A stretch of DNA of 64,000 bases from Streptomyces sp. NBC_01551. Its GTDB lineage: Bacteria > Actinomycetota > Actinomycetes > Streptomycetales > Streptomycetaceae. Under the pieces are notes generated by a model. That model was not told the DNA's origin, searched no databases, and saw nothing but the letters and a program-made list of their open reading frames with translations. Position numbers and translations under genes: made by a program. Location of the stretch: NCBI RefSeq assembly GCF_026339935.1, contig NZ_JAPEPX010000001.1, positions 1,718,501-1,782,500 of the forward strand, given 5' to 3'. This document shows positions 33,017 to 51,262 of the stretch, one piece after another (position 1 is the first letter of the stretch; each line of letters opens with the position of its first letter).

Positions 33017-33820
33017 ATGGGTCATCAGGGCAGCCGCGGCGAGCGGCGCATCAGTTCGGTATTCCTCGGCATCGTCGCGGTGATGGCGGTCACCGGCTGG
33101 GCCGTGTGGACGGGCTACGCGGCCAGCCCGGGCCTCGCGGTGTTCCTGTTCGTGACGTCCGCCTGGGTCGTCTCGCTCTGCCTGCACGAGTACGCGCACG
33201 CCCGCACCGCCCTGCACGGCGGCGACCTCACCGTCGGCGCCAAGGGCTACCTGACGCTCAATCCGCTCAAGTACACGCACGCGCTGCTCAGCATCGTGCT
33301 GCCGGTGCTCTTTGTGATCATGGGCGGGATCGGCCTGCCCGGTGGCGCCGTGTACATCGAGCGCGACCGGATCGCGGGCCGCTGGAAGCACAGCCTCATC
33401 TCGGCGGCGGGCCCGCTGGCCAACGTCGCGTTCGCGGTCGTGTGCACGGCCCCGTTCTGGCTGGACGCGCTGGACGGGGTGCCGGTGACGTTCCGCTTCG
33501 CGCTGGCGTTCCTGGCCCTGCTCCAGGTCTCGGCGGCGATCTTGAACTTCCTGCCGGTGCCGGGTCTGGACGGCTACGGGGTCATCGAGCCCTGGCTCTC
33601 GCACCGGGTGCGCCGCGAGCTGGCGCCGATCGCGCCGTTCGGTCTGATCGCCCTGTTCGCGCTGCTGTGGATCCCGGAGGTCAACCAGTTCTTCTTCGGC
33701 GTGGTGGACGGCGTGCTGTCCGCGCTGGGCGTGAACGAGCAGGAGACCTACTGCGGCCACAACCTCTACCGGTTCTGGCAGGAGACCGACGGGTACTTCT
33801 GCGCCGCCCCGGCGGACTAG
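33017..33820 (+). CDS. M50 (site-2 protease-like) membrane metalloprotease
   Basis: A 267-residue intramembrane zinc protease. HEYAH (about residues 59-63) gives the HExxH-type zinc site, and NFLPVPGLDG (about 177-186) supplies the third ligand Asp in the LDG motif. Around six transmembrane segments are visible. The family cleaves single-pass membrane proteins such as anti-sigma factors, but no anti-sigma gene is adjacent. Divergent from the AfsR-like gene. Confidence 0.93.
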   Translation: MGHQGSRGERRISSVFLGIVAVMAVTGWAVWTGYAASPGLAVFLFVTSAWVVSLCLHEYAHARTALHGGDLTVGAKGYLTLNPLKYTHALLSIVLPVLFVIMGGIGLPGGAVYIERDRIAGRWKHSLISAAGPLANVAFAVVCTAPFWLDALDGVPVTFRFALAFLALLQVSAAILNFLPVPGLDGYGVIEPWLSHRVRRELAPIAPFGLIALFALLWIPEVNQFFFGVVDGVLSALGVNEQETYCGHNLYRFWQETDGYFCAAPAD

Positions 33821-34909: not shown

Positions 34910-35114
34910 GGGGAACAGCTCCTCGGCGACACGGGACGGGGTCGAGCCCCTCCAGTGTCCCCCATGCCCTGCCGTGCTCCCGTAAAGGCTCCCCCGACAC
35001 CGTCCGACCCGTCCGCCCGCGTTTTTCGCCATTTGCCTGATCTTCCACCCGGGGCGCCGCTACGGTCGCCGGGTGCGGCGGTGGTGTGCGCGCACGGGCA
35101 TCGGGGGGAAAGAC

Positions 35115-37265
35115 ATGCGGGAGATCTCCAAAGGCGCGAACGTGAGCCTGACCGCCCTCAGCGAGGACGCCGGTTCGGTCGTGGTGAGCCTGGGCTGGAG
35201 CAGCGCGTCGGGGGCCGGAGACGCCGACGTCTCCGTCCTCCTCGTCGGCGAGGACGGCAAGGTCCGCAGCGAGAACGACTTCTACTTCTACAACAACCCC
35301 GCCGCCGCGGACGGCAGCGTGCAGCTGCTGGGCAAGACGCCCACGGACAGCGGCGACGAGGACCGGATCGGGGTGGACCTGACCGCGGTCCCCGAGGGGG
35401 TCGCCCGGATCGTGGTGGCGGCCAGCCAGTACGGCGGCACGTGCTTCGGCGACCTGGACGGCCTGCGGATGACGGTCGCGGACCGGTCGGGCGAACCGCT
35501 GGTCGGGTTCTCCATCGAGGACGCGAGCGTGGAGACGGCGTTCATCTTCGGCGAGCTGTACCGGCGCGGGGAGGAGTGGAAGTTCCGCGCCGTCGGGCAG
35601 GGCTACGAGACCGGCCTGGCGGGCCTCGCCACGGACTTCGGCATCACCGTCGAGGAGTCGGAGGAGGCCGGGGAGGCCGGCGACGCCGGGGAGGAGGGAG
35701 AGCCGGCGCAGGCCGCGCCGCCCGCCGAGGCTCCGGCCGCGCCGGCGTCCGTACCCGATGCCGATGCCGGGACCGGGACCGCCCAGGCTCCGGCCGCGCC
35801 GGCCATCGCGCCCGGTGCCGGGGCCGCCGAGGGCGCGGTCGCGGCGATCGCCGGGCCCGCGGTCGTGACCGCCGCGCCGCCGGACCCGGCAGCCGGCCCG
35901 GCCGCCCCGGAGGCCGGCGCCGCCGTGCCCGCCCAGACCCGGGGGCGAGCGGCCACGCGGACGACCCGGAAGAAGGTGACGCTGCCCAAGGCCCCCGGCA
36001 AGTCGCTCGCCGAGAACGACTCCTGGCGCCCGGCCCGGCTGTTCCCCGTACCGACGCTGAAGAGCGACAAGGAGCGGGAAGTACGCGCGACCTCGGTCCT
36101 GCTGTCCGTCATGGCGCAGGTCCCGGAGTTCGGCCGCCGTCTCACCGCGGCCTTCGGCGCCCCCGCCGGACGGATGCAGACCTTCACCGAGGTGTCCCTC
36201 CCGCACGGCGACACCCCGCGCCGCCCGGACGGGGTGATCCGGGTCGAGCGCGCCGGGAAGCTGTGGACGGCGCTGGTCGAGACGAAGACCAACGGCAACC
36301 CGCTCAAGCCCGAGCAGGTGCAGCAGTACATGGACATCGCGGCCCGCCGGGGCTACGAGTCCGTGATCACGCTCTCCAACGACGTGGCCCTCGAAGGCAC
36401 CGCCATGGTGGACGTCAAGATCGACGGGCGGCGCAAGCACAAGGTCGGGCTCTGGCACCTGTCCTGGGCCGAAGTCGCCCACCAGGCCCAGCTGCTGATC
36501 CGGCACGAGGGCGTGGGCAACGCCGCGCACGCCTGGCTGCTGCAGGAGCTGCTGGCGTACCTCCAGCACGAGCAGTCGGGCTGCCACGGGTTCCAGAACA
36601 TGGGCCCCGCCTGGGTCCCCGTGCGCAACGGCATCGAGGACGAGACCCTCGGTCTCGGCGACCCCCGCGCCACCGAGGTCGTCGAGAGCTGGGAGCGGCT
36701 GATCCGCCAGGTCTGCCTGCGGCTCGGCGGGGAACTCGGCCAGAAGGCGCTCCCGGTGCAGCGGGTGCGGCGCGGCAGCGATCCGGGCACCCGGCGGGCG
36801 GCCGCCGCGGAGCGGCTGTGCCTGGACGGCCGGCTCTCGGCCGAGCTGCGCGTCGAGGGGACGAGCAGTGTCATCGCGGTGACCGCCGATCTGCGGACGG
36901 GGAAGGTCCGCACCTCCGTGGAGGTACCGGCGCCGGAGGGCTCGTACCCGCTGGTTTCGGTGAAGCGGCTGGTGCGGCTGCTGGCCGAGGCCCCGGCGGA
37001 CCTGCACGTGGAGAGCCTCGTCGAGGGCGAGAACGGGCCGCGCGGCACGCTGGAGCGGCTGCGGCCGGAGCCCGGTGACCTGCTGCCCAGGAGCGGCGCT
37101 CCCGTCACCGGGTTCCGGCTGACGCTGATCAAGGGCATGGGCAACACCCGCGGCAACACCGAGTCCGGTTTCATCCGCAGCGTCGACGAGGCCGTGGACC
37201 GTTTCCACCAGGCGGTGGTGGCCCGCCTCGGGCCCCTGGAGGCGCGTACGGGCCGCCGCGGCTGA
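35115..37265 (+). CDS. TerD-domain protein fused to a PD-(D/E)XK nuclease-like domain
   Basis: A 716-residue protein. Residues 1-~180 are a TerD domain (ISKGANVSLT, DFYFYNNPAAADGSV, GELYRRGEEWKFRAVGQGY); the calcium-binding acidic loop is only partly kept (SGDEDRIGVDL). A ~115-residue Ala/Pro/Glu linker follows. The C-terminal ~410 residues contain the sequence RRPDGVI (D372), 16 residues, then ETK (E389, K391), followed by PEQVQQYMD: the pattern of a PD-(D/E)XK nuclease core. TerD proteins belong to tellurite/stress and phage-resistance systems. A nuclease effector coupled to a TerD sensor is my inference. ATG 35115 follows GGGGGAAAGAC. Other ter genes are absent nearby. Confidence 0.78.
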   Translation: MREISKGANVSLTALSEDAGSVVVSLGWSSASGAGDADVSVLLVGEDGKVRSENDFYFYNNPAAADGSVQLLGKTPTDSGDEDRIGVDLTAVPEGVARIVVAASQYGGTCFGDLDGLRMTVADRSGEPLVGFSIEDASVETAFIFGELYRRGEEWKFRAVGQGYETGLAGLATDFGITVEESEEAGEAGDAGEEGEPAQAAPPAEAPAAPASVPDADAGTGTAQAPAAPAIAPGAGAAEGAVAAIAGPAVVTAAPPDPAAGPAAPEAGAAVPAQTRGRAATRTTRKKVTLPKAPGKSLAENDSWRPARLFPVPTLKSDKEREVRATSVLLSVMAQVPEFGRRLTAAFGAPAGRMQTFTEVSLPHGDTPRRPDGVIRVERAGKLWTALVETKTNGNPLKPEQVQQYMDIAARRGYESVITLSNDVALEGTAMVDVKIDGRRKHKVGLWHLSWAEVAHQAQLLIRHEGVGNAAHAWLLQELLAYLQHEQSGCHGFQNMGPAWVPVRNGIEDETLGLGDPRATEVVESWERLIRQVCLRLGGELGQKALPVQRVRRGSDPGTRRAAAAERLCLDGRLSAELRVEGTSSVIAVTADLRTGKVRTSVEVPAPEGSYPLVSVKRLVRLLAEAPADLHVESLVEGENGPRGTLERLRPEPGDLLPRSGAPVTGFRLTLIKGMGNTRGNTESGFIRSVDEAVDRFHQAVVARLGPLEARTGRRG

Positions 37266-37299
37266 CCCCGCCGGCGGCCCGGCCGACGGCCCGCGGTGC

Positions 37300-38019
37300 T
37301 CAGACGTCCGTGACGCGCAGGCCCGCGTGGGCCTTGTAGCGGCGGTTGGTGGAGATCAGGTTGGCGACGAGCGCCTCGACCTGGTGCGCGCCCCGCAGCC
37401 GCCCCGCGAAGACGCCGCGCATGCCCGGGATGCGGGCGGTGAGGGCCTGGACGATGTCGGTGTCGGCGCGGGATTCGCCGAGGACCATCACGTCGGTGTC
37501 GATCTCCTCGACCGTCTCGTCCTGGAGCAGGACCGCCGAGAGGTGGTGGAAGGCCGCCGTCACCCGGGAGTCGGGGAGCAGGGCCGCGGCCTGCTGCGCC
37601 GCGCTGCCCTCCTCGACCTGGAGGGCGTACGCGCCCTGCTTGTCGAAGCCGAGCGGGTTGACGCAGTCCACCACGAGCTTGCCGGCGAGGTCCTCGCGCA
37701 GCGCTTCGAGGGTCCTGGCGTGGCCCTCCCACGGCACCGCGATGATGACGACGTCGCTGCGGCGCGCGCACTCCGCGTTGTCCGCGCCCTCGACGCCGAG
37801 GCCGAGTTCCTCGGCGGCGGTCCGCGCGCGGTCGGCGGCGCGCGAGCCGATGATCACCTTCTGGCCGGCCCGGGCGAACCGGTAGGCGAGGCCCCGGCCC
37901 TGGTCGCCGGTGCCGCCGAGGACGCCGACGACGAGGCCGGACACGTCCGGGAGGTCCCACGGGTCCTTGGCCGGCGGCTTCTGCGGCTGCGGTGCCTGCG
38001 TGCTGTCTGTGGAAGTCAT
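37300..38019 (-). CDS. npdG: NADPH-dependent F420 reductase
   Basis: A 239-residue F420H2:NADP+ oxidoreductase. The N-terminal Rossmann motif VVGVLGGTGDQGRGLA (about 30-45) binds F420/NADP, and GSRAADRA follows as the 2'-phosphate-recognising stretch. VNPLGFDKQG and the C-terminal AHQVEALVANLISTNRRYKAHAGLRVTD complete the family pattern. It exchanges hydride between F420 and NADP in the cytosol, feeding F420-dependent reductases. The start is ATG 38019, supported by a leaderless-type promoter. Single gene, converging on 35115-37265. Confidence 0.94.
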   Translation of the reverse strand: MTSTDSTQAPQPQKPPAKDPWDLPDVSGLVVGVLGGTGDQGRGLAYRFARAGQKVIIGSRAADRARTAAEELGLGVEGADNAECARRSDVVIIAVPWEGHARTLEALREDLAGKLVVDCVNPLGFDKQGAYALQVEEGSAAQQAAALLPDSRVTAAFHHLSAVLLQDETVEEIDTDVMVLGESRADTDIVQALTARIPGMRGVFAGRLRGAHQVEALVANLISTNRRYKAHAGLRVTDV

Positions 38020-41504: not shown

Positions 41505-42974
41505 TCAGTTTCCGGCCGTACGCCGCCTGCGCGCGAGGTACACCGCGCCGGCGCCGGCGGCGATCACCGTGCCGGACGCGCCGAGCAGGGCCCCGGCGGG
41601 GATCTCGGCGCCGGTGGCGGCCAGGTTCCCGCCGACGCTGCCGCCACCGCCGACCGTGCCGCCGCCGCCCACGGTGCCACCCGTGGAGCCGGTGGAGCCG
41701 GTGGAGCCGGTCGTGGTGCCCGACGTCGGCGTGCCCGTCGACGTCGTCTTGGTGGGCGTGGCGGTCGGCAGGACGACGTCCTTCTCCACGGCCACGGCGA
41801 GGTTGACGTCGTCGATCCGGTCGCCCGCCTTGTACATGGAGCCGTTGGTGTCGTTGGTGAAGGCGGCCGCGCCCTCGGCCGTCAGGGCGGTCGGGACCCC
41901 GCCCAGGGAGAGCAGGCCTCCCTTCGTCTTGTAGTCGGCTTTCGTGAGGTCGAGGGTGGCGAAGGGGACGGCCGTCTTGGTGCCGGAGGCGTTCTTCACG
42001 TCCAGGAGCAGCGTGCCCTTGGCGCCCTCGGCGTTCACCTTGATGTTGCCGAAGGTCATGTCGATGCCGTGGGCCGCGAACTGGAAGCGCAGGTTGCCCT
42101 CGAACGCGGCGTTCAGCTTCCGCTTCTTGACGTCGAGTTCGCCCTTGCCGGCCACGAAGGAGAACGTGTCGCCGCTCTTGGCCGCGCCGCCCGCCGGGGT
42201 GATGGTGCCGCCCGCGCCCTGCACGTACGTGCGGAAGGACTCCTTGATGCCCCAGGTCAGCTTGCCGCTCAGGACGGGCTGCGGGCCGTCGGCCGGCGGG
42301 GCCGAGGCGGTCGTCGTCGGGGACTTCGTGGGCGCCGGGGAGGACGAGGCGGAGGTCGAGCCGGACGGGCCGGGCTCGGGCGCCGCGAACTCCAGCGCCG
42401 ACGTCAGCGGGTCGCCCTTCAGGCCCGCGTACTGCGGGGCGCCGAGCTGGTCGGCGGCGTCCTTGGTGAGGGTGGTCTCCAGCTTGGTCATCACCGGGCC
42501 GGCGAAGGCCGCGTCCGCGAGCGGCACGTTCGGGGTGAGCACCCCGTTCTTGGTGATGTCGCCGGTGACCTTCTTCGTCCCGGTGTCGAAACGGAGGTTG
42601 CCGAGCTTCACGACGAACCCGTGGGCGGAGGCGTCGAAGACGACGGTGCCCTTGAAGGCGGCGGTCACGACGCGGGTGCCCTCGTCGTACTGGCCGGTGG
42701 CCGAGGCGAAGCGGAAGGTTCCGTCCGCGTTCCTCGTGGCGCCGTCCGTGGTGGTGATCGTGCCCTTGGCGGTCTTCTCTATGTACGTGCGGTACCGCTC
42801 CAGCAGGCCCCAGTCGAGGGTGCCGCCGACGATCGGCCTCGGCGCGGCGGCAGCGGCAGCGGCGGCCGGGGCCCCGCCGTTCGCCGTCGCGGGCAGGATG
42901 AAGGCGGTGGCGCCGAGGGCGGCCAGGGTGGCGATGGCGGCCGCGAGGGCGACGGAGCGGCGCTGGGACGACAT
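41505..42974 (-). CDS. Sortase-anchored HtaA-domain heme-binding protein
   Basis: A 489-residue surface protein with a signal peptide (about 1-32) and two HtaA domains (about 48-190 and 232-385; each begins with G-x-L-x-W-G-x-K/L-E-x-x-R-x-Y). HtaA domains bind heme and pass it to HmuT in Corynebacterium. The C-terminus has the tripartite cell-wall sorting signal NLAATG, a hydrophobic stretch and RRRR, matching the LAxTG type used by class E sortases. AGGAG precedes ATG 42974. It lies 58 bases downstream of a second HtaA gene, likely in one operon. Confidence 0.9.
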   Translation of the reverse strand: MSSQRRSVALAAAIATLAALGATAFILPATANGGAPAAAAAAAAPRPIVGGTLDWGLLERYRTYIEKTAKGTITTTDGATRNADGTFRFASATGQYDEGTRVVTAAFKGTVVFDASAHGFVVKLGNLRFDTGTKKVTGDITKNGVLTPNVPLADAAFAGPVMTKLETTLTKDAADQLGAPQYAGLKGDPLTSALEFAAPEPGPSGSTSASSSPAPTKSPTTTASAPPADGPQPVLSGKLTWGIKESFRTYVQGAGGTITPAGGAAKSGDTFSFVAGKGELDVKKRKLNAAFEGNLRFQFAAHGIDMTFGNIKVNAEGAKGTLLLDVKNASGTKTAVPFATLDLTKADYKTKGGLLSLGGVPTALTAEGAAAFTNDTNGSMYKAGDRIDDVNLAVAVEKDVVLPTATPTKTTSTGTPTSGTTTGSTGSTGSTGGTVGGGGTVGGGGSVGGNLAATGAEIPAGALLGASGTVIAAGAGAVYLARRRRTAGN

Positions 42975-43032
42975 GGCTGAGTACTCCTGGGGGCGGGGGA
43001 CGGAGGGAGGGGGGTGGGGTGAGCGCCGGCCG

Positions 43033-44586
43033 TCAGGACCGGGGGGTGTCCGTGGGCCCCGGCTCGGGCGAGGAAGAGGAGGTCGAGGAGCCGTCCGCCG
43101 AGGCGGCGTCCGGGGACTCGGCTTCCGGGGCGGCGGAAGACGAACCCTCGGAGGCGGAGTCCTCCGGAGCCGGGGCAGAGGCCGGCGCCGGTTCGCGGCG
43201 CTTGCGGAGCGTCAGGAAGGCGACGCCGCCGGCCAGGACCAGGACGGCCACGCCGACGGCGATGTACGTCCCGGTGTCCGAGGACCCGTCGGCCGCATTC
43301 CGCGCCGGGGCCGGCGCGGCGGCGGACGCCGAGGAGGAGGAGGCCGTGGAGCCGAGGTCGGGAAGGGCCGGCAGGCGCGCGCCGGCGTCCAGCGCGACGG
43401 CGAGCGAGACGGGGTCCATCTCGGTGCCCGCCTTGTACATGGAGTTGAAGGCCCGGGAGCCGTCCTCGGTGAGGGTGGCGGGGGCCTCGGTGAGGGTGGC
43501 GAGGCCGCCCTCGGTCTTGAGGCCCTTGGCGTCGAACTCGACCAGCGGGACGGCGCTCTTCGTCGCGCCCGCGGTGGTGACGTCCGCGCTCAGGACGCCC
43601 CTGCCGCCTTGGACCTTGGCGGTCACCGCGCCGAGCTTCAGGTCGAGGTGGGCGCCGGTGAAGTGGACGGTGCCGGCGAACGCGGCGTCCAGGGCGCCCT
43701 TCTCGCCGTCGAACGAGCCCTTGCCCTGCCCGAAGCGGAACAGAGCGCCGCCGTCCCGGGCGCCGTCGGCGAGGGTCCACTTGCCCTGGCCGATGGAGCC
43801 GGTGACGTACTCGCGGAAGGTGCGCCGCACGCCCCAGTCGACGGCTGCGTCGACGAAGGCCCCCGGCGCCCGGCTGCCCTGCGGGGACGCGCTCCCGCTC
43901 GGCTGCGCGCTCGGCGACGACCCGGCGGGCGCCGAGGACTGCCCGCCCTCCGGCGCGGCCTTGACGTCGGCGGAGAGCGAGATCGGGTCGAGCTGCGCGC
44001 CGGCCGTGTAGTAGCCGGCGAAGGACTTGGCGCCCTGGGCGGTGAGGGTGACCGGGATGTTGGTCAGGGCGATCGGGCTGCCGCCGCCCGCCATGTTGAC
44101 GCCGCCCAGGCCGAGCGAGGCGAAGGGCACCTGGGACTCGGTGGTGACCACGCCGGTGTCCTTGGCCTTGCTGGAGACATCCGCGTAGAGGGTGCCGCTG
44201 CCGCCGTTGATCTTGATGGTGGGGCGGCTGACGCTGAGGTCCAGTTCGTACGCGCCGTCCGGCTTCTGGTGGCCCTGGAATTGGACTCCGCCGCTGAACG
44301 AGGCCTCGAAGGCGCCGGTGTCGGGGTCGTAGGAGCCGGTGGCCGAGTGGAAGCGGAAGAGGCTGCCGCCGACCGTGGCGGCTCCGTTCTTCAGCTTGAA
44401 ACCGCCTTTCGCGACAGGACCGGTGACGTAACTCTGGAATGACGATTTGATGCCCCAGTCGAGCCGACCCCCCTGAACGGTACGGCTCGCGGCGTGCGCG
44501 GCGGTGGCCGGAACCAGGGCCGTCAGCAAGGCCGCCAGGGTCGCCAGCAGGGCGACGGCGATAGCACGGGCGGGTCTTGCGGACAT
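43033..44586 (-). CDS. HtaA-domain heme-binding protein, transmembrane-anchored
   Basis: A 517-residue surface protein: signal peptide (about 1-33), HtaA domain 1 (about 38-185, GGRLDWGIKSSFQSYV), Ser/Pro-rich linker, HtaA domain 2 (about 245-400, AAVDWGVRRTFREYV), then TGTYIAVGVAVLVLAGGVAF as an anchor and a long acidic Ser/Glu tail. It has no sorting motif, so the two HtaA proteins differ in attachment. GGAGGGGGC precedes ATG 44586. Its upstream region holds a consensus iron box, so it should be induced on iron starvation. Confidence 0.92.
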   Translation of the reverse strand: MSARPARAIAVALLATLAALLTALVPATAAHAASRTVQGGRLDWGIKSSFQSYVTGPVAKGGFKLKNGAATVGGSLFRFHSATGSYDPDTGAFEASFSGGVQFQGHQKPDGAYELDLSVSRPTIKINGGSGTLYADVSSKAKDTGVVTTESQVPFASLGLGGVNMAGGGSPIALTNIPVTLTAQGAKSFAGYYTAGAQLDPISLSADVKAAPEGGQSSAPAGSSPSAQPSGSASPQGSRAPGAFVDAAVDWGVRRTFREYVTGSIGQGKWTLADGARDGGALFRFGQGKGSFDGEKGALDAAFAGTVHFTGAHLDLKLGAVTAKVQGGRGVLSADVTTAGATKSAVPLVEFDAKGLKTEGGLATLTEAPATLTEDGSRAFNSMYKAGTEMDPVSLAVALDAGARLPALPDLGSTASSSSASAAAPAPARNAADGSSDTGTYIAVGVAVLVLAGGVAFLTLRKRREPAPASAPAPEDSASEGSSSAAPEAESPDAASADGSSTSSSSPEPGPTDTPRS

Positions 44587-44763: not shown

Positions 44764-45786
44764 GTGCCTACGCCCGCCGCGTCACCCCGCTTCCCCCGTC
44801 TCGCCGCCGCCCTCGCGGGCCTGGCGCTGGCACTGGCCGTGACCGGCTGCGGAGGTGCGGCCACCCAGGCGAACTCCCCCGCCCCCACCGCCTCGTCGAT
44901 CCCGGACCGGGTCGAGCCGCTCACCCCGGCCCCCGCACCCGCCCTGCCGGTGACGGTGGCCTCGGCGGACGGCACCCGGGTGAGCGTCACCTCGGCGGAC
45001 CGGGTGATCCCGCTGACCGGCAGCCTGAACGAGATCGTCCACACCCTGGGGCTCGGCGAGCGGGTCGTGGCCCGCGACATCACCGCCACCTTCGAACAGG
45101 CGGCGGGGCTCCCGGTCGTGACCCGGGGCCACGACGTCTCGGCGGAGAGCGTGCTCTCGCTGCGCCCGACCCTGGTCCTCGCCGAGACCACCTCCGGCCC
45201 CGCCGAGGCGATCCGGCAGATCCGCGACGCGGGCATCCCGCTGCTCGTGGTCTCCCCGGCCAAGTCCCTGGACGACGTACCGAAGCGCATCGAGACCGTG
45301 GCCGGCGCACTGGGCGTCAAGGACGCGGGGGCGCGGCTGAACGAGCGCACCGCCGAGCGGATCGCCGCCGCCCGCAAGGACATTCCGGCCGCCGCCTCCG
45401 GCAAGAAGCCCCGCGTCGCCTTCCTCTACCTGCGCGGCACCGCCTCCGTCTACCTGCTGGGCGGCTCCGACTCGGGCGCGGCCTCACTGCTGGAGGCCGC
45501 GGGCGCGGTCGACACCGGCAAGGCATCGGGGCTCGGCAAGGACTTCACGCCGATCACCAGCGAGGCCCTGGCGGCCGCCGCGCCCGACGCGATCCTCGTC
45601 ATGACCAAGGGCCTGGAGTCCGTGGGCGGCCTGGACGGCCTCGTGAGGATCCCGGGCGTCGCGCAGACCCCGGCGGGCATGGACCGCCGCGTGGTCGCGG
45701 TGGACGACGGCGTCCTCCTCAACTACGGCCCGCGCACCGACCAGGTGCTGACCTCGCTGATCGACCAGCTCTACGGCAAGGCCTGA
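44764..45786 (+). CDS. hmuT: Heme ABC transporter substrate-binding lipoprotein
   Basis: A 340-residue lipoprotein; the lipobox ends LAVTGC at about residue 29. The mature part is a periplasmic-binding fold with the helical-backbone pattern of siderophore/heme binding proteins (TGSLNEIVHTLGLGERVV, LSLRPTLVLAETTSG, LRGTASVYLLGG, GVLLNYGPRTDQV). It receives heme from the HtaA proteins and delivers it to HmuU. GTG 44764 has GGACGGTG upstream. Start of the hmuTUV operon; only one base separates its stop from the permease start. Confidence 0.93.
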   Translation: MPTPAASPRFPRLAAALAGLALALAVTGCGGAATQANSPAPTASSIPDRVEPLTPAPAPALPVTVASADGTRVSVTSADRVIPLTGSLNEIVHTLGLGERVVARDITATFEQAAGLPVVTRGHDVSAESVLSLRPTLVLAETTSGPAEAIRQIRDAGIPLLVVSPAKSLDDVPKRIETVAGALGVKDAGARLNERTAERIAAARKDIPAAASGKKPRVAFLYLRGTASVYLLGGSDSGAASLLEAAGAVDTGKASGLGKDFTPITSEALAAAAPDAILVMTKGLESVGGLDGLVRIPGVAQTPAGMDRRVVAVDDGVLLNYGPRTDQVLTSLIDQLYGKA

Positions 45787-45787
45787 C

Positions 45788-46888
45788 GTGACCCTCCCCA
45801 ACACCGTCGGCCTGGCCGGCCGGAACACGGAGCTGCCGCCCGCGCGGCCGCCCGTCCGCAAGCGGCGCGGCGCCGCGCTGCTCACCGCCGCCCTCGCGGG
45901 CACCCTGCTCGTCGTCGCGCTGCTGTCCGCGGGCATCGGCGCGTACGAGATCCCCACCGGGGACGTACTCGCCTCCGTGCAGCACCGGTTGGGCCTCGGC
46001 GGGGCCGCCCTCGACCGGGTCGGGGAGAGCGTGCTGTGGAACGTACGGCTGCCGCGCGTGGTGCTCGCGCTGCTCGTCGGGTCGAGCCTCGGCTGCGCGG
46101 GCGCCCTGATGCAGGGGGTGTTCGGCAATCCGCTCGCCGAGCCGGGTGTCATCGGCATCTCGGCCGGCGCGGCCGTCGGCGCGGTCGCCGCGATCGGTCT
46201 CGGCCTCAGCTTCCTCGGCAACTGGACCATCACCGCGTGCGCGTTCGTCTCCGGCCTGGTGACGGTGGGCTCGGTGTACGTGCTGTCGCGCAACGGCGGC
46301 AAGACCGAGGTCGTCACGCTGATCCTCACGGGCATCGCGGTGAACGCCTTCGCCGGCGCCCTGATCGGCCTGTTCGTGTTCTTCGCGGACAGCGGTCAGG
46401 TCAACCAGATCACCTTCTGGCAGCTCGGCTCCCTCGCCCAGGCCACCTGGCCCAAGGTGCTCGCCGTGCTGCCCTGCGCCCTCGCCGGCCTGCTGATCGC
46501 CCCTCTCTACGCGCGCAAGCTGGACCTGCTCGCCCTCGGCGAGCGCCCCGCCCGCCATCTCGGCATCGACGTCGAGCGGCTGCGGCTCGCCCTGATCCTG
46601 GTGGTCGCGCTGCTCACGGCGGCCGCCGTCGCCGTCGCCGGAGTGATCACCTTCGTCGGGCTGCTGGTGCCGCACCTGCTGCGGATGGCCAACGGCCCCG
46701 GGCACCGCTTCCTGGTGCCGGGCAGCGCCCTGGCCGGCGCCGTGGTCCTGCTCGCGGGCGATCTGGCCGCGCGGACGATCGCCGCGCCGGCCGAGCTGCC
46801 GCTCGGTGTGCTGACCGCGCTGATCGGCAGCCCCTTCTTCTTCTGGCTGCTGCGTCGGACCCGCCGCAAGCAAGGGGGCTGGGCGTGA
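45788..46888 (+). CDS. hmuU: Heme ABC transporter permease
   Basis: A 366-residue FecCD/BtuC-family permease with about ten hydrophobic segments. Typical blocks are VRLPRVVLALLVGSSLGCAGALMQ, NPLAEPGVIGISAGAAVGA, GWLF-like W-Q-L-GS (TFWQLGSLAQ) and VPHLLRMANGPGHR. GTG 45788 follows HmuT by one base. Its stop overlaps the ATPase start (GTGA). Transports heme across the membrane with HmuT and HmuV. Confidence 0.94.
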   Translation: MTLPNTVGLAGRNTELPPARPPVRKRRGAALLTAALAGTLLVVALLSAGIGAYEIPTGDVLASVQHRLGLGGAALDRVGESVLWNVRLPRVVLALLVGSSLGCAGALMQGVFGNPLAEPGVIGISAGAAVGAVAAIGLGLSFLGNWTITACAFVSGLVTVGSVYVLSRNGGKTEVVTLILTGIAVNAFAGALIGLFVFFADSGQVNQITFWQLGSLAQATWPKVLAVLPCALAGLLIAPLYARKLDLLALGERPARHLGIDVERLRLALILVVALLTAAAVAVAGVITFVGLLVPHLLRMANGPGHRFLVPGSALAGAVVLLAGDLAARTIAAPAELPLGVLTALIGSPFFFWLLRRTRRKQGGWA

Positions 46889-47712
46889 ACGTCCTGTTCA
46901 GGAGGAACAAGCGGACGGTCCCGGCCCGGCCCGCGCCCGGCGCGCCGCTCGCGCAGGCCGCGGACCTCCACGTACGGCTCGGGCAGCGCGAGGTGCTGGC
47001 CGGCATCGAACTGACGGCCCGGGCCGGCGAGGTGCTGGCCCTGGTCGGGCCGAACGGCGCGGGCAAGTCCACGCTGCTGGCCGCGCTCGCCGCGGACCTT
47101 CCGGCGGCTTCCGGGGTGGTACGGATCGACGGGCGCCCGGTGGGCGACTGGTCGGCCCCGGACCTCGCGCTGCGCCGATCGGTGCTCCCCCAGTCGGCCG
47201 CGCTGTCGTTCCCCTTCCCCGTGGCGGACGTCGTGCGGATGGGCCGCGCCCCGTGGGCGGGCACCCCGTACGCCGACGCCGACGAGGAGGCGATCGCCGC
47301 CGCGATGGCCGCGACCGAGGTGACCGGCTTCGCCGAGCGCCCCTTCTCGGCGCTCTCCGGAGGCGAACGCGCCCGGGTCGCGCTGGCCCGTGTGCTCGCC
47401 CAGGGGGCCCCGCTGCTGCTGCTCGACGAACCCACCGCCGCCCTCGACCTGCGCCACCAGGAGCTGGTCCTGCGGATCTGCCGGGAGCGGGCCGCGGCCG
47501 GGGACGCGGTGATCGTCGTCCTGCACGACCTGGGCCTGGCTGCCGCGTACGCGGACCGGGCCGCCGTCCTGCACGACGGCCGGATCGCGGCGGACGGCCC
47601 GCCGGCCGAGGTGTTCGAGGACGCGCTGCTGAGCCGCGTGTACCGGCAGCCGGTGGAAGTCCTTCCGCACCCCCGGACGGGCGCCCCGCTGGTGGTCCCG
47701 GTCCGGGCTTGA
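46885..47712 (+). CDS. hmuV: Heme ABC transporter ATP-binding protein
   Basis: A 275-residue ATPase of the HmuV/FepC type: Walker A GPNGAGKST, Q-loop LPQSAAL, signature LSGGERARVALA, Walker B LLLDEPTAALD and H-loop VVLHDLGLAA. GTG 46885 overlaps the HmuU stop by four bases. Completes HmuTUV; the heme imported would be handled by HmuO encoded at 40114. Confidence 0.95.
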   Translation: MNVLFRRNKRTVPARPAPGAPLAQAADLHVRLGQREVLAGIELTARAGEVLALVGPNGAGKSTLLAALAADLPAASGVVRIDGRPVGDWSAPDLALRRSVLPQSAALSFPFPVADVVRMGRAPWAGTPYADADEEAIAAAMAATEVTGFAERPFSALSGGERARVALARVLAQGAPLLLLDEPTAALDLRHQELVLRICRERAAAGDAVIVVLHDLGLAAAYADRAAVLHDGRIAADGPPAEVFEDALLSRVYRQPVEVLPHPRTGAPLVVPVRA

Positions 47713-47816
47713 CCTCCGCTTGACCCTGCCATGGGGTCGTCATGAGGGCTCCGTGACGGCCCCGTGTCCGCCCTTCGACTGTGTGCGCTGAATCACTGGA
47801 CGCGGCGGTATGGGTC

Positions 47817-47848
47817 AGGTAAGCCTCGGTTAAGTTAGGTCCGCCTCA
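47817..47848 (+). promoter_or_regulatory. Degenerate iron-box cluster upstream of efeO
   Basis: AGGTAAGCCT (47817-47826) resembles the core of the hmuO palindrome (AGGTAAACCT). TTAAGTTAGGTCCGCCTCA (47830-47848) matches the iron-box consensus at 13 of 19 positions. The pair lies 51-83 bases before ATG 47900 and probably gives iron-dependent control. Confidence 0.55.
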
Positions 47849-47899
47849 CTGGCCACTCCCCTCCGGGAAGGCCCCACGTCCGAAGCCCAGGAGCTCCCT

Positions 47900-49054
47900 A
47901 TGCGCCCCGCCCGCCTCTCCGTTCTCACCGCGGCCGCCGTCGCGGCCGCGCTCACCGCCGTCACCGGCTGCGCCGAGAAGAGCGACTCCGCCGGCGGCGA
48001 CGGCGCGATCCACGTGAGCGCCACCGACTCCGCGTGCGAGGTCTCCAAGAAGGAGTTCCCGGCGGGCAAGGCGACCATCGAGGTCGAGAACAAGGGCTCC
48101 AAGGTCACCGAGGTGTACGTCCTCTTCCCTGACGGCCGCATCGTCACCGAGCGCGAGAACATCGGCCCGGGCACCAAGGCCTCCATCACCGCCGAGATCA
48201 AGGCCGGCGACTACGAGATCGCCTGCAAGCCCGGCATGACGGGCGACGGCATCAAGCAGCAGGTCAAGGCCACCGGCAAGGGCTCCACCGAGAAGCGCGA
48301 CCCCGCACTGGACGCCGCGGTCGCCGCGTACCGCACGTACGTCCAGCAGCAGGCCGACGAGACCCTCCCCAAGGCGCAGGCCTTCGTGGACGCCGTCAAG
48401 GCCGGTGACGTCGAGGCCGCCAAGAAGGCGTACGCGCCGTCCCGCATCGGCTGGGAGCGCACCGAGCCGGTCGCCGAGTCCTTCGGTGACATCGACCCGA
48501 AGATCGACGTCCGCGAGGACGGCCTGGAGGCGGGCCAGGACCCGGCGAAGGACTGGACCGGCTGGCACCGCCTGGAGAAGTCCCTGTGGGCCGACAACAA
48601 GATCGGTGACACCGAGAAGAAGCTCGCCGACACCCTGATGGCCGACCTCACCGACTGGACGAAGAAGATCGGCACGGCGGAGATCACCCCGACCTCGATG
48701 GCCAACGGCGCCAAGGAGCTCCTCGACGAGGTCGCCAGCGGCAAGGTCACCGGTGAGGAAGAGCGCTACAGCCGCACCGACCTGGTCGACTTCAAGGCCA
48801 ACATCGAGGGCGCGCAGAAGGCGTACGAGCTGCTCAAGCCGGTCGCCGCGAAGAACGACCCGGCCCTGGCCGGCGAGCTCGACAAGCAGTTCGCCGCGAT
48901 GACCACGCTGCTCGACAAGTACCGGGCCGACAAGTCGGGCTACGACTTCCAGTCGTACGACACGGTCAAGGACGACCAGCGCAAGGAGCTGTCGGACGCC
49001 GTCAGCGCCCTCGGGGAGCCGCTGTCCAAGCTGGCCGCCGCCGTCGTCAAGTAG
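47900..49054 (+). CDS. efeO: EfeO, iron-uptake lipoprotein with cupredoxin and M75 domains
   Basis: A 384-residue lipoprotein (lipobox ALTAVTGC). After it comes a cupredoxin-like domain (about 35-130, IHVSATDSACEVSKKEFPAG ... YEIACKPGM) and an imelysin-like M75 domain (about 140-384) with the metal site GWHRLE (HxxE). Family members deliver or bind iron outside the membrane for EfeU. First gene of the efeO-efeB-efeU unit; 30 bases from the next gene. Confidence 0.95.
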   Translation: MRPARLSVLTAAAVAAALTAVTGCAEKSDSAGGDGAIHVSATDSACEVSKKEFPAGKATIEVENKGSKVTEVYVLFPDGRIVTERENIGPGTKASITAEIKAGDYEIACKPGMTGDGIKQQVKATGKGSTEKRDPALDAAVAAYRTYVQQQADETLPKAQAFVDAVKAGDVEAAKKAYAPSRIGWERTEPVAESFGDIDPKIDVREDGLEAGQDPAKDWTGWHRLEKSLWADNKIGDTEKKLADTLMADLTDWTKKIGTAEITPTSMANGAKELLDEVASGKVTGEEERYSRTDLVDFKANIEGAQKAYELLKPVAAKNDPALAGELDKQFAAMTTLLDKYRADKSGYDFQSYDTVKDDQRKELSDAVSALGEPLSKLAAAVVK

Positions 49055-49084
49055 CCCGCACCACCGGCATCAGAGGTGTCCGTC

Positions 49085-50380
49085 ATGTCAGACGAAACCA
49101 ACAGCAGCACCAGCCCCGGCCCCGAGGGCGACGGGAACACCACCGGCGCGCCCTCCCGTCGGGCCGTGCTCGGCTGGGGCGGCGCCGGGCTCGCGCTCGG
49201 CGCCGCCGCGGCGGGCGGCACCGTGGCCGCGCTCACCAGCGGCACCGGCACCGTCCCGGCCGGGATGACCGGCGAGGCGGTGCCGTTCCACGGCGCGCAC
49301 CAGGCCGGTATCGCCAGCGCCGTCCAGGACCGGCTGCACTTCGCGGCGTTCGACGTGAAGACGAAGGACCGCGCCGAACTCGTCCGGCTCCTCCAGGACT
49401 GGACCCGGGCGGCCGAGCGGATGACCGCCGGCCTCCCGGTCGGGGAGGGCGCCGTCGGCGGCCTCCCCGAGGCCCCGCCGGACGACACCGGCGAGGCCCT
49501 CGGCCTCAAGCCGAACCGGCTGACGCTGACCGTCGGCTTCGGCCCCTCGCTGTTCGCCAAGGGCCGGTTCGGTCTGGAGGACAGGCGCCCCGAGGCCCTG
49601 ATCGACCTGGAGCTGTTCCCCGGCGACAACCTGGACCCGGTGCGCAGCGGCGGCGACCTCTGCGTGCAGGCCTGCGCGGACGACCCGCAGGTCGCGGTGC
49701 ACGCGATCCGCCAGCTCGCCCGGATCGGCTTCGGCAAGACCGTGATGCGCTGGTCGCAGCTCGGCTTCGGCAAGACCTCCTCGACCACCCCCGAGGAGCA
49801 GACGCCGCGCAACATGATGGGCTTCAAGGACGGCACCCGGAACATCTCGGGCACCGACACCGCGGCCCTGGACAAGCACGTGTGGGTGTCCGCCACGGAC
49901 GCCCCGGGCGCCTCGTCCTGGATGGTCGGCGGCTCGTACCTGGTCGCCCGCCGGATCCGGATGAACATCGAGATCTGGGACCGCACCCCGCTCCAGGAGC
50001 AGGAGGACATCTTCGGCCGCGACAAGGCCGAGGGTGCCCCGGTCGGCAAGTCCAAGGAGCGCGACGAGCCGTTCCTGAAGGCGATGAAGCCGGAGGCGCA
50101 CGTGCGCCTCGCCCACCCGGACACCAACGACGGCGCGACGATCCTGCGCCGCGGCTACTCCTTCACGGACGGCACGGACGGGCTGGGCCGCCTCGACGCG
50201 GGCCTGTTCTTCCTGGCCTACCAGCGGGACGTCCGCAAGGGCTTCGTGCCGATCCAGCGCAACCTGGCGAAGTCCGACGTACTCAACGAATACATCCAGC
50301 ACGTGGGTTCGGCCGTCTTCGCCGTCCCGCCGGGCGTCCGCGACGCGGACGACTGGTGGGGCCGGGCGCTGTTGTCGTAG
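49085..50380 (+). CDS. efeB: EfeB, Tat-exported dye-decolorizing (DyP) peroxidase
   Basis: A 431-residue heme peroxidase of the DyP family. The N-terminus has twin arginines (PSRRAVLGWGGAGLALG) for Tat export. The distal GFKDGTRN motif with catalytic Asp, an Arg in VARRIRMNIEIWDR, and the proximal heme His in VRLAHPDTND are present. It is thought to help oxidise Fe(II), or extract iron from heme, for EfeU. ATG 49085 has AGAGG before it; the in-frame GTG at 49076 is less well placed. Placed between efeO and efeU. Confidence 0.95.
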   Translation: MSDETNSSTSPGPEGDGNTTGAPSRRAVLGWGGAGLALGAAAAGGTVAALTSGTGTVPAGMTGEAVPFHGAHQAGIASAVQDRLHFAAFDVKTKDRAELVRLLQDWTRAAERMTAGLPVGEGAVGGLPEAPPDDTGEALGLKPNRLTLTVGFGPSLFAKGRFGLEDRRPEALIDLELFPGDNLDPVRSGGDLCVQACADDPQVAVHAIRQLARIGFGKTVMRWSQLGFGKTSSTTPEEQTPRNMMGFKDGTRNISGTDTAALDKHVWVSATDAPGASSWMVGGSYLVARRIRMNIEIWDRTPLQEQEDIFGRDKAEGAPVGKSKERDEPFLKAMKPEAHVRLAHPDTNDGATILRRGYSFTDGTDGLGRLDAGLFFLAYQRDVRKGFVPIQRNLAKSDVLNEYIQHVGSAVFAVPPGVRDADDWWGRALLS

Positions 50381-50401
50381 TCGCGGACAAGGGGAAACCA
50401 C

Positions 50402-51262
50402 GTGTTCAGCAATTATCTGATCGGTCTGCGCGAGGGGCTGGAGGCCAGCCTGGTCGTCTGCATCCTCGTCGCCTACCTGGTCAAGACCGGGCACAAGGAC
50501 AAGCTGGCCCCGCTGTGGGCCGGTGTGGGCCTGGCGGCGGCGCTGAGCCTGGCGTTCGGCGCGGCGCTGGAATTCGGCACGCAGGAGCTCACGTTCCAGG
50601 CGCAGGAGGCGATCGGCGGCTCGCTGTCGATCATCGCCGTGGGTCTGGTGACCTGGATGGTCTTCTGGATGAAGCGCACCGCGCGGCACCTGAAGGCCGA
50701 ACTGCACGGGAAGCTGGACGCGGCCCTCGCGATGGGCACCGGCGCGCTGGTCACCACCGCGTTCCTGGCCGTCGGCCGGGAGGGCCTGGAGACCTCGCTG
50801 TTCGTGTGGCGCTCGGTGAAGGCGGCCGGTGACGGCGCGGGCCCGCTGACGGGCGTGCTGCTGGGCATCGCGTCGGCGATCGTGCTGGGCTGGCTGTTCT
50901 ACCGGGGCGCCCTGAAGATCAACCTGGCCAAGTTCTTCAAGTGGACCGGCGGGATGCTCGTCGTGGTCGCGGCGGGCGTGCTCGCGTACGGGGTCCACGA
51001 CCTCCAGGAGGCGGACTTCGTGCCCGGCCTGACGAACAAGGCCTTCGACATCAGCGCCACGATCCCGCCGGACAGCTGGTACGGGACGCTGCTGAAGGGC
51101 ACGTTCAACTTCCAGCCGGATCCGACCTGGCTCCAGGTCGCGGTGTGGGTGGCCTACCTGGTCCCGACGCTGTTCCTGTTCCTCGCGCCGGGTCTGACCC
51201 GGCGTCCGGCCGCGCCCGCGCCGGCCGCCCCGCAGGACACCGGGGCCGGGCGCGAGGCGTAA
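50402..51262 (+). CDS. efeU: EfeU, FTR1-family iron permease
   Basis: A 286-residue iron permease with about seven transmembrane segments and both iron-transport motifs REGLE: REGLEASL (about residue 10) and GREGLETSL (about 124). GTG 50402 follows AAGGGGAAACC. It imports iron supplied by EfeO/EfeB. The C-terminal tail is Ala/Pro-rich. Confidence 0.96.
   Translation: MFSNYLIGLREGLEASLVVCILVAYLVKTGHKDKLAPLWAGVGLAAALSLAFGAALEFGTQELTFQAQEAIGGSLSIIAVGLVTWMVFWMKRTARHLKAELHGKLDAALAMGTGALVTTAFLAVGREGLETSLFVWRSVKAAGDGAGPLTGVLLGIASAIVLGWLFYRGALKINLAKFFKWTGGMLVVVAAGVLAYGVHDLQEADFVPGLTNKAFDISATIPPDSWYGTLLKGTFNFQPDPTWLQVAVWVAYLVPTLFLFLAPGLTRRPAAPAPAAPQDTGAGREA

Follow-up and report, generated by a model that had tools for sequence, protein, structure and literature searches.

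A TerD protein of Streptomyces with a predicted PD-(D/E)XK nuclease and a chaperone-like domain: a candidate one-gene defence or stress effector

A single gene of Streptomyces sp. NBC_01551, annotated in the database as a stress protein only, encodes a chain in which a TerD domain is followed by a predicted PD-(D/E)XK nuclease with an invariant active site and by a domain with a chaperone-like predicted fold. The gene lies in a stretch of 64,000 nucleotides (the window), whose own numbering is used throughout. We propose that the protein is a three-domain conditional nuclease serving as a defence or stress effector, a reading to which we would give an even chance.

Domain architecture of the protein

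The open reading frame was recovered where the initial annotation had placed it. A longer version starting from a GTG at 35073 is possible; in the alignment of copies, the block common to copies at other sites starts at the codon of 35115, and the 26-copy alignment of flanks and gene ends places the 3' part roughly. The features are as follows.

35115..37265, + strand: gene for the TerD / PD-(D/E)XK / TY-Chap-like protein, 716 aa (ORF)
35121..35639, + strand: TerD domain, residues 3-175 (Pfam PF02342, E 2.8e-50; PDB 3ibz, E 1.8e-36 by sequence)
35649..36011, + strand: linker, residues 179-299, low-complexity and poorly conserved (conservation in 121 rows)
36066..36569, + strand: predicted PD-(D/E)XK (restriction-endonuclease-like) domain, residues ~318-485
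36228..36230, + strand: codon of D372 (PD motif), invariant
36279..36287, + strand: codons of E389-T-K391 (ExK motif), E and K invariant
36315..36329, + strand: codons of Q401-xxx-Y405, helix after ExK, Q and Y invariant
36633..37262, + strand: predicted YbjN / class I type III chaperone-like (TY-Chap) domain, residues 507-716

The N-terminal TerD domain recognised by the initial annotation was borne out, with PF02342 matching across the entire domain at 170.8 bits against a gathering score of 25.3, and TerD was the sole Pfam family above cut-off in the whole protein. A search of PDB sequences returned two TerD chains and no other chains. When the genome itself was searched with the whole protein, 10 matches were obtained, the protein included, and the other nine were confined to the TerD and linker part, none extending to the C-terminal module. 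An acidic loop of the GDN-TG-G-GDDE type, presumably the calcium site of canonical TerDs, was seen in a pair of canonical TerDs from this genome (L004/L006, which are one gene, and L005). In contrast to these, the nuclease-fused TerDs compared (window, L189, L195, L197, L199, L201 and L032) lacked the loop, as did paralogues L002, L003, L007 and L008; the DxDxS region was mostly retained in the TerDs compared. Since the canonical acidic loop is absent, the usual metal sensing by fused TerDs is doubtful.

With respect to the nuclease, the RRPDGVI...ETK stretch (D372, E389, K391) had been read as a PD-(D/E)XK pattern, and this is well supported by the predicted fold and by the invariance of the residues. 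In the AF2 model the region adopts a restriction-endonuclease-like core of the alpha-beta-beta-beta-alpha-beta type, whose strands 2 and 3 bear the motif, D372 opening strand 2 and E389-x-K391 closing strand 3. A helix does lie downstream of the motif, although what had been called Q-rich is really the QxxxY helix after ExK. Residues P371, D372, E389, K391, Q401 and Y405 were identical in 121/121 rows of fusions (the window being counted twice) and in 120/120 matches to the stand-alone query, both sets being the best 120 matches per search and therefore mostly close relatives. The six positions were likewise identical in 63/63 rows of alignment A2 and in 13/13 more diverse rows of alignment A1, so that no aligned homologue lacked the D...ExK residues, and the motif was present in 15 of 16 further loci, the exception (L204) being a piece that starts after PD. 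Such identity of positions across fusions and stand-alones shows that the motif is not a chance one. Mean majority identity in the 121 rows was 0.96 for residues 300-485 and 0.93 for TerD versus 0.47 for the linker; judged by sequence, the nuclease domain is strongly constrained and the linker is drifting.

No Pfam nuclease family reached its cut-off in the window protein. The best, VRR_NUC, covered residues 369-415 at 13.7 bits against 23.8 (E 0.15, whole protein), and was found at E <= 1 in 27 of 63 module members, with a best E of 0.0009. A profile of the module gave no match to PDB sequences, NCBIfam gave scattered weak matches only, and at E <= 0.001 Foldseek matched nothing in PDB or among viral models, so the fold claims stand on VIA-align and motif geometry. 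The predicted core and the PD...ExK...Q motif are common to the module and to 1y88/AF1548, the BspD6I small subunit, the FokI cleavage domain, McrC and XisH. We regard the fold assignment as almost certain, and consider it very probable that the predicted nuclease is catalytic.

Residues ~507-716 appear as a separate domain, which the initial annotation overlooked; its description of a direct sensor-nuclease fusion is right in that TerD and nuclease share one chain, and incomplete in that a third domain is present. The model shows a helix-flanked beta-sheet chaperone fold with moderate Z, and no Pfam match to any TY-Chap / YbjN-type family was obtained. A similar fold is found in the TY-Chap superfamily (YbjN, AmyR, DR1245 and class I T3SS chaperones), as described in PMC9503650 and PMC3575483. 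The present domain differs in sitting behind a nuclease and in giving no Pfam match to that superfamily.

Family relationships and patchy distribution

Outside Streptomycetaceae, the nuclease-chaperone module was found alone (~450 aa) or in TerD fusions (L032, L189-L199, L201); no TerD match turned up within the fetched stretches at any of the 80 loci retained after the genome scan. All 80 listed loci bear Actinomycetota names, and 476 further stretches match, so that the module may also occur in other phyla. Two protein searches yielded 2748 and 5265 matches among ~8000 scored candidates each, to all of which the architecture is not necessarily common, and relatives among the best 120 matches per search are named 'TerD family protein', 'stress response protein' or 'hypothetical protein'. 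A tree was built from 52 rows hand-chosen from the fetched loci (including 19 of the 80 genome-scan loci; fusion L192 and the partial L204 were left out). In it a single branch (99/96) separated 21 fusions from 31 stand-alones, a branch that is no proof of a single origin, the long branches of Streptomyces and f3 meeting. By this tree, nuclease and chaperone-like domain seem to have been joined first, TerD having been added later and, most simply, once. L140 and L141 carry TerD and nuclease in one frame, and their interpretation as broken copies was ruled out by this continuity.

The module matched 52 of 200 family genomes and was without a match in the other 148. At least 390 of 417 positions were present in one piece in 40 of the 52, and 12 held fragments or split copies (e.g. 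G018, G027, G041, G102, G105, G183), which may reflect decay after acquisition or assembly breaks. Class-wide, 56 of 394 genomes matched (51 of 360 if the less complete ones are set aside). Nineteen near-complete family copies (that of the window and 18 of the others) occupied 14 contexts, one context being defined by two common neighbours within six genes; the wider table of 20 loci and 15 contexts includes L144, from another family, and omits L141, which the gene caller missed.

For the window's own site, we compared 10 of the 11 genomes with the most similar copy of the neighbour gene at 33017-33820 (G628 was left out), a near-core gene of the genus (113 of 121 genomes). The gene was present at the site in five (L145, L147, L150, L151, L153), the site was without it and its flanks lay close together in four (L146, L148, L152, L154), and for L149 no right flank could be located. 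In three of the empty sites, similarity to the window runs up to 34969-35015 on one flank and resumes from 37278-37300 on the other, giving a further feature:

35010..37290, no strand: single-gene insertion, approximate and without sharp ends, absent in L146, L148 and L152

Four genomes (G052, G024, G040, G048) had the site without the gene and the gene elsewhere, and G044 had ~3.4 kb of other DNA at the site, again with the gene elsewhere. Gain and loss are indistinguishable at a single site; taken over genomes, the gene is accessory and is gained or lost by itself. No target duplication, terminal repeats or common flanking DNA were seen by eye in the alignments made, and homing or transposition was rejected for want of common flanking DNA, repeats or an integrase. 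Linkage to tRNA islands was also dropped, as 10 of 80 stand-alone loci lay within 2 kb of a tRNA versus ~9 expected from density. A partial stand-alone relative with 51% identity (L124:3-962) is carried by a 7-kb contig that was classified as viral but may be host DNA; a viral origin was rejected, this being the single such match, with 0 matches in 50,697 phage records.

Genomic neighbourhood and plasmid copies

No conserved operon partner was found. The largest neighbour clusters, built on a crude gene caller, covered 22, 10 and 8 of 81 loci and, by eye among the matches listed, looked like broad paralogous families or genus synteny. The chromosomal copies have no evidently conserved partner, and no integrase, transposase or antitoxin is conserved alongside them. 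The window copy sits among ordinary chromosomal genes with no evident defence island, which counts against a defence role. Further along the window, a haem/iron uptake region was recognised by eye at 41505-44586 (-) and 44764-51262 (+), with secreted HtaA-like proteins, a transporter and EfeUOB-like genes. Near the stand-alone nucleases, a large ATPase, DUF2075-like by eye, was seen within 10 kb at 6 of 80 loci (L044, L055, L063, L084, L088, L094; within ~1.2 kb in L044, L055, L084 and L088), four of the six also having a MazG-like gene (by eye).

The gene was carried by 11 plasmid records, six from Streptomyces and five from Rhodococcus, whose context was surveyed over 9-12 kb either side in all 11, one of them unannotated. 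On L214 it follows genes for SIR2 (as annotated), a CBASS cyclase (E 7.5e-135), E1-E2 (E 3.3e-157), JAB and NucC (E 5.1e-84), with two further preceding genes weakly matching LeoA/BnzB, and on L208 and its near-copy L213 CBASS genes lie ~1 kb downstream. CBASS genes thus adjoin three of the five Rhodococcus copies, two being near-copies, which leaves two independent arrangements; the same queries gave no CBASS match in the fetched stretches of L209 and L215 (Rhodococcus) or of the six Streptomyces plasmids. RES-family genes (as annotated) also occur near the gene on Rhodococcus plasmids. Among Streptomyces plasmids, L212 has a vWA-TerF gene ~170 bp downstream and L211 a trypsin-nSTAND-WD40 protein ~1.5 kb away. 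The stretch L211:11467-16100 near the fusion holds a CU044_2847-family gene and the trypsin-nSTAND1-WD40 protein, genes that we take to resemble conflict systems of multicellular bacteria. PADLOC 2023 assigned the window's C-terminal module to 0 defence families and gave one weak match (E 0.055) on 63 module members.

The initial annotation had suggested a self-contained defence or stress effector. Indirect support for this comes from a distribution that is patchy, single-gene, site-variable and plasmid-borne, and from the CBASS genes nearby on some Rhodococcus plasmids; the high conservation of the protein counts against defence, since many defence genes diversify fast, and so do the want of a PADLOC model or phage record that matches and the small number (two) of independent CBASS arrangements.

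Proposed function and alternatives

In the mechanism we propose, the N-terminal TerD domain would sense or localise, the central domain would act as a metal-dependent DNase, and the C-terminal domain would dock onto a protein or peptide. At rest, the TerD and/or chaperone-like domain may keep the nuclease inactive or bind its target, until a stress- or invader-derived signal frees it to cut DNA. Rather than doing housekeeping work, the gene would be an accessory trait, complete in itself, that is retained for protection against invaders (phage, plasmid) or severe stress. In favour of this proposal we count the predicted fold and catalytic geometry, the invariant residues, the constraint on the nuclease, the grouping of the fusions, the distribution and plasmid carriage described above, the want of any obligate partner among the neighbours, the CBASS genes on three Rhodococcus plasmids and the vWA-TerF gene next to one Streptomyces plasmid copy.

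TerD genes are stress genes, and the protein could instead be a nuclease for DNA repair or processing at times of stress, in which a partner of SSB or repair type is brought in through the YbjN-like domain, TerD provides the link to the general Ter stress response, and damaged DNA is trimmed by the nuclease. The strong constraint on the nuclease domain is consistent with this, as is the binding of the SSB-like DdrB by the YbjN-like DR1245 in Deinococcus, reported in PMC3575483. Physiological regulation is suggested by a CRP-box-like palindrome, TGTG-N8-CACA, found upstream in 8 of 26 Streptomyces-family copies (L128, L131, L133, L134, L135, L136, L137, L138) versus 0.04 expected from single-base shuffling; as L135, L137 and L138 have a common site, the eight are not all independent, and the window copy has no such palindrome upstream. 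The palindrome agrees with the consensus sites of Crp, GTG(N)6GNCAC, and of GlxR, GTG(N)8CAC, given in PMC10033298. Weighed against the 148 family genomes without a match, the one-gene gain or loss and the plasmid carriage, a repair role seems rather unlikely.

A more specific form of the conditional-nuclease reading draws on ligand-gated REase effectors of CBASS and CRISPR such as Cap4, which we take to be a REase-SAVED protein, and Card1 (6xl1), where by analogy a putative ligand domain and PD-(D/E)XK share one chain. TerD would then be the receptor for a nucleotide-like Ter-system signal and would switch on the DNase of the same chain as SAVED/CARF do in Cap4/Card1. Here TerD stands in place of SAVED/CARF, a cyclase partner is not conserved, no SAVED domain was matched in the protein (Pfam) or the module (PADLOC), and the CBASS genes adjoining Rhodococcus plasmid copies include their own NucC. 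The idea stems from the suggestion, in PMC7159879, that TerD may recognise specialised nucleotide derivatives, which makes a TerD-gated nuclease plausible. We hold this form to be unlikely; if true, actinomycetes would widely carry a ligand-gated immune effector that is encoded by one gene and moves on its own.

That the gene is a toxin-like or selfish nuclease, persisting by addiction or lone-gene spread, is improbable: it does occur singly, with an upstream region of its own, in numerous unrelated settings, as fragments or split pieces only in 12 of the 52 matching family genomes, and near RES-family genes on Rhodococcus plasmids, whereas the repeats, duplications and shared flanks of a mobile element were not seen in the alignments made and no integrase, transposase or antitoxin gene is conserved next to it. 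Some PD-(D/E)XK folds are inactive, and the fold could act as a DNA- or protein-binding regulator and not as an enzyme, which the invariant catalytic positions of both fusions and stand-alones render very improbable.

Returning to the conditional nuclease, a Ter-system survey by Anantharaman et al. in 2012 is said to have had a DNA-processing theme. Among the literature matches listed, no paper on a TerD-PD-(D/E)XK fusion was found, though that survey may mention one; PMC3710099 mentions an anti-phage system that depends on TerD and includes a McrBC-like part. TerD proteins are common. One that shares its chain with a nuclease whose active site is intact would offer a direct read-out of what TerD senses and acts upon, in that ligands switching on cutting could be screened for. 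The analysis would also give a predicted enzyme function to proteins hitherto named for TerD or stress response or left as hypothetical, and makes this gene a candidate for a defence or stress nuclease acting alone, one that can be put to experimental test.
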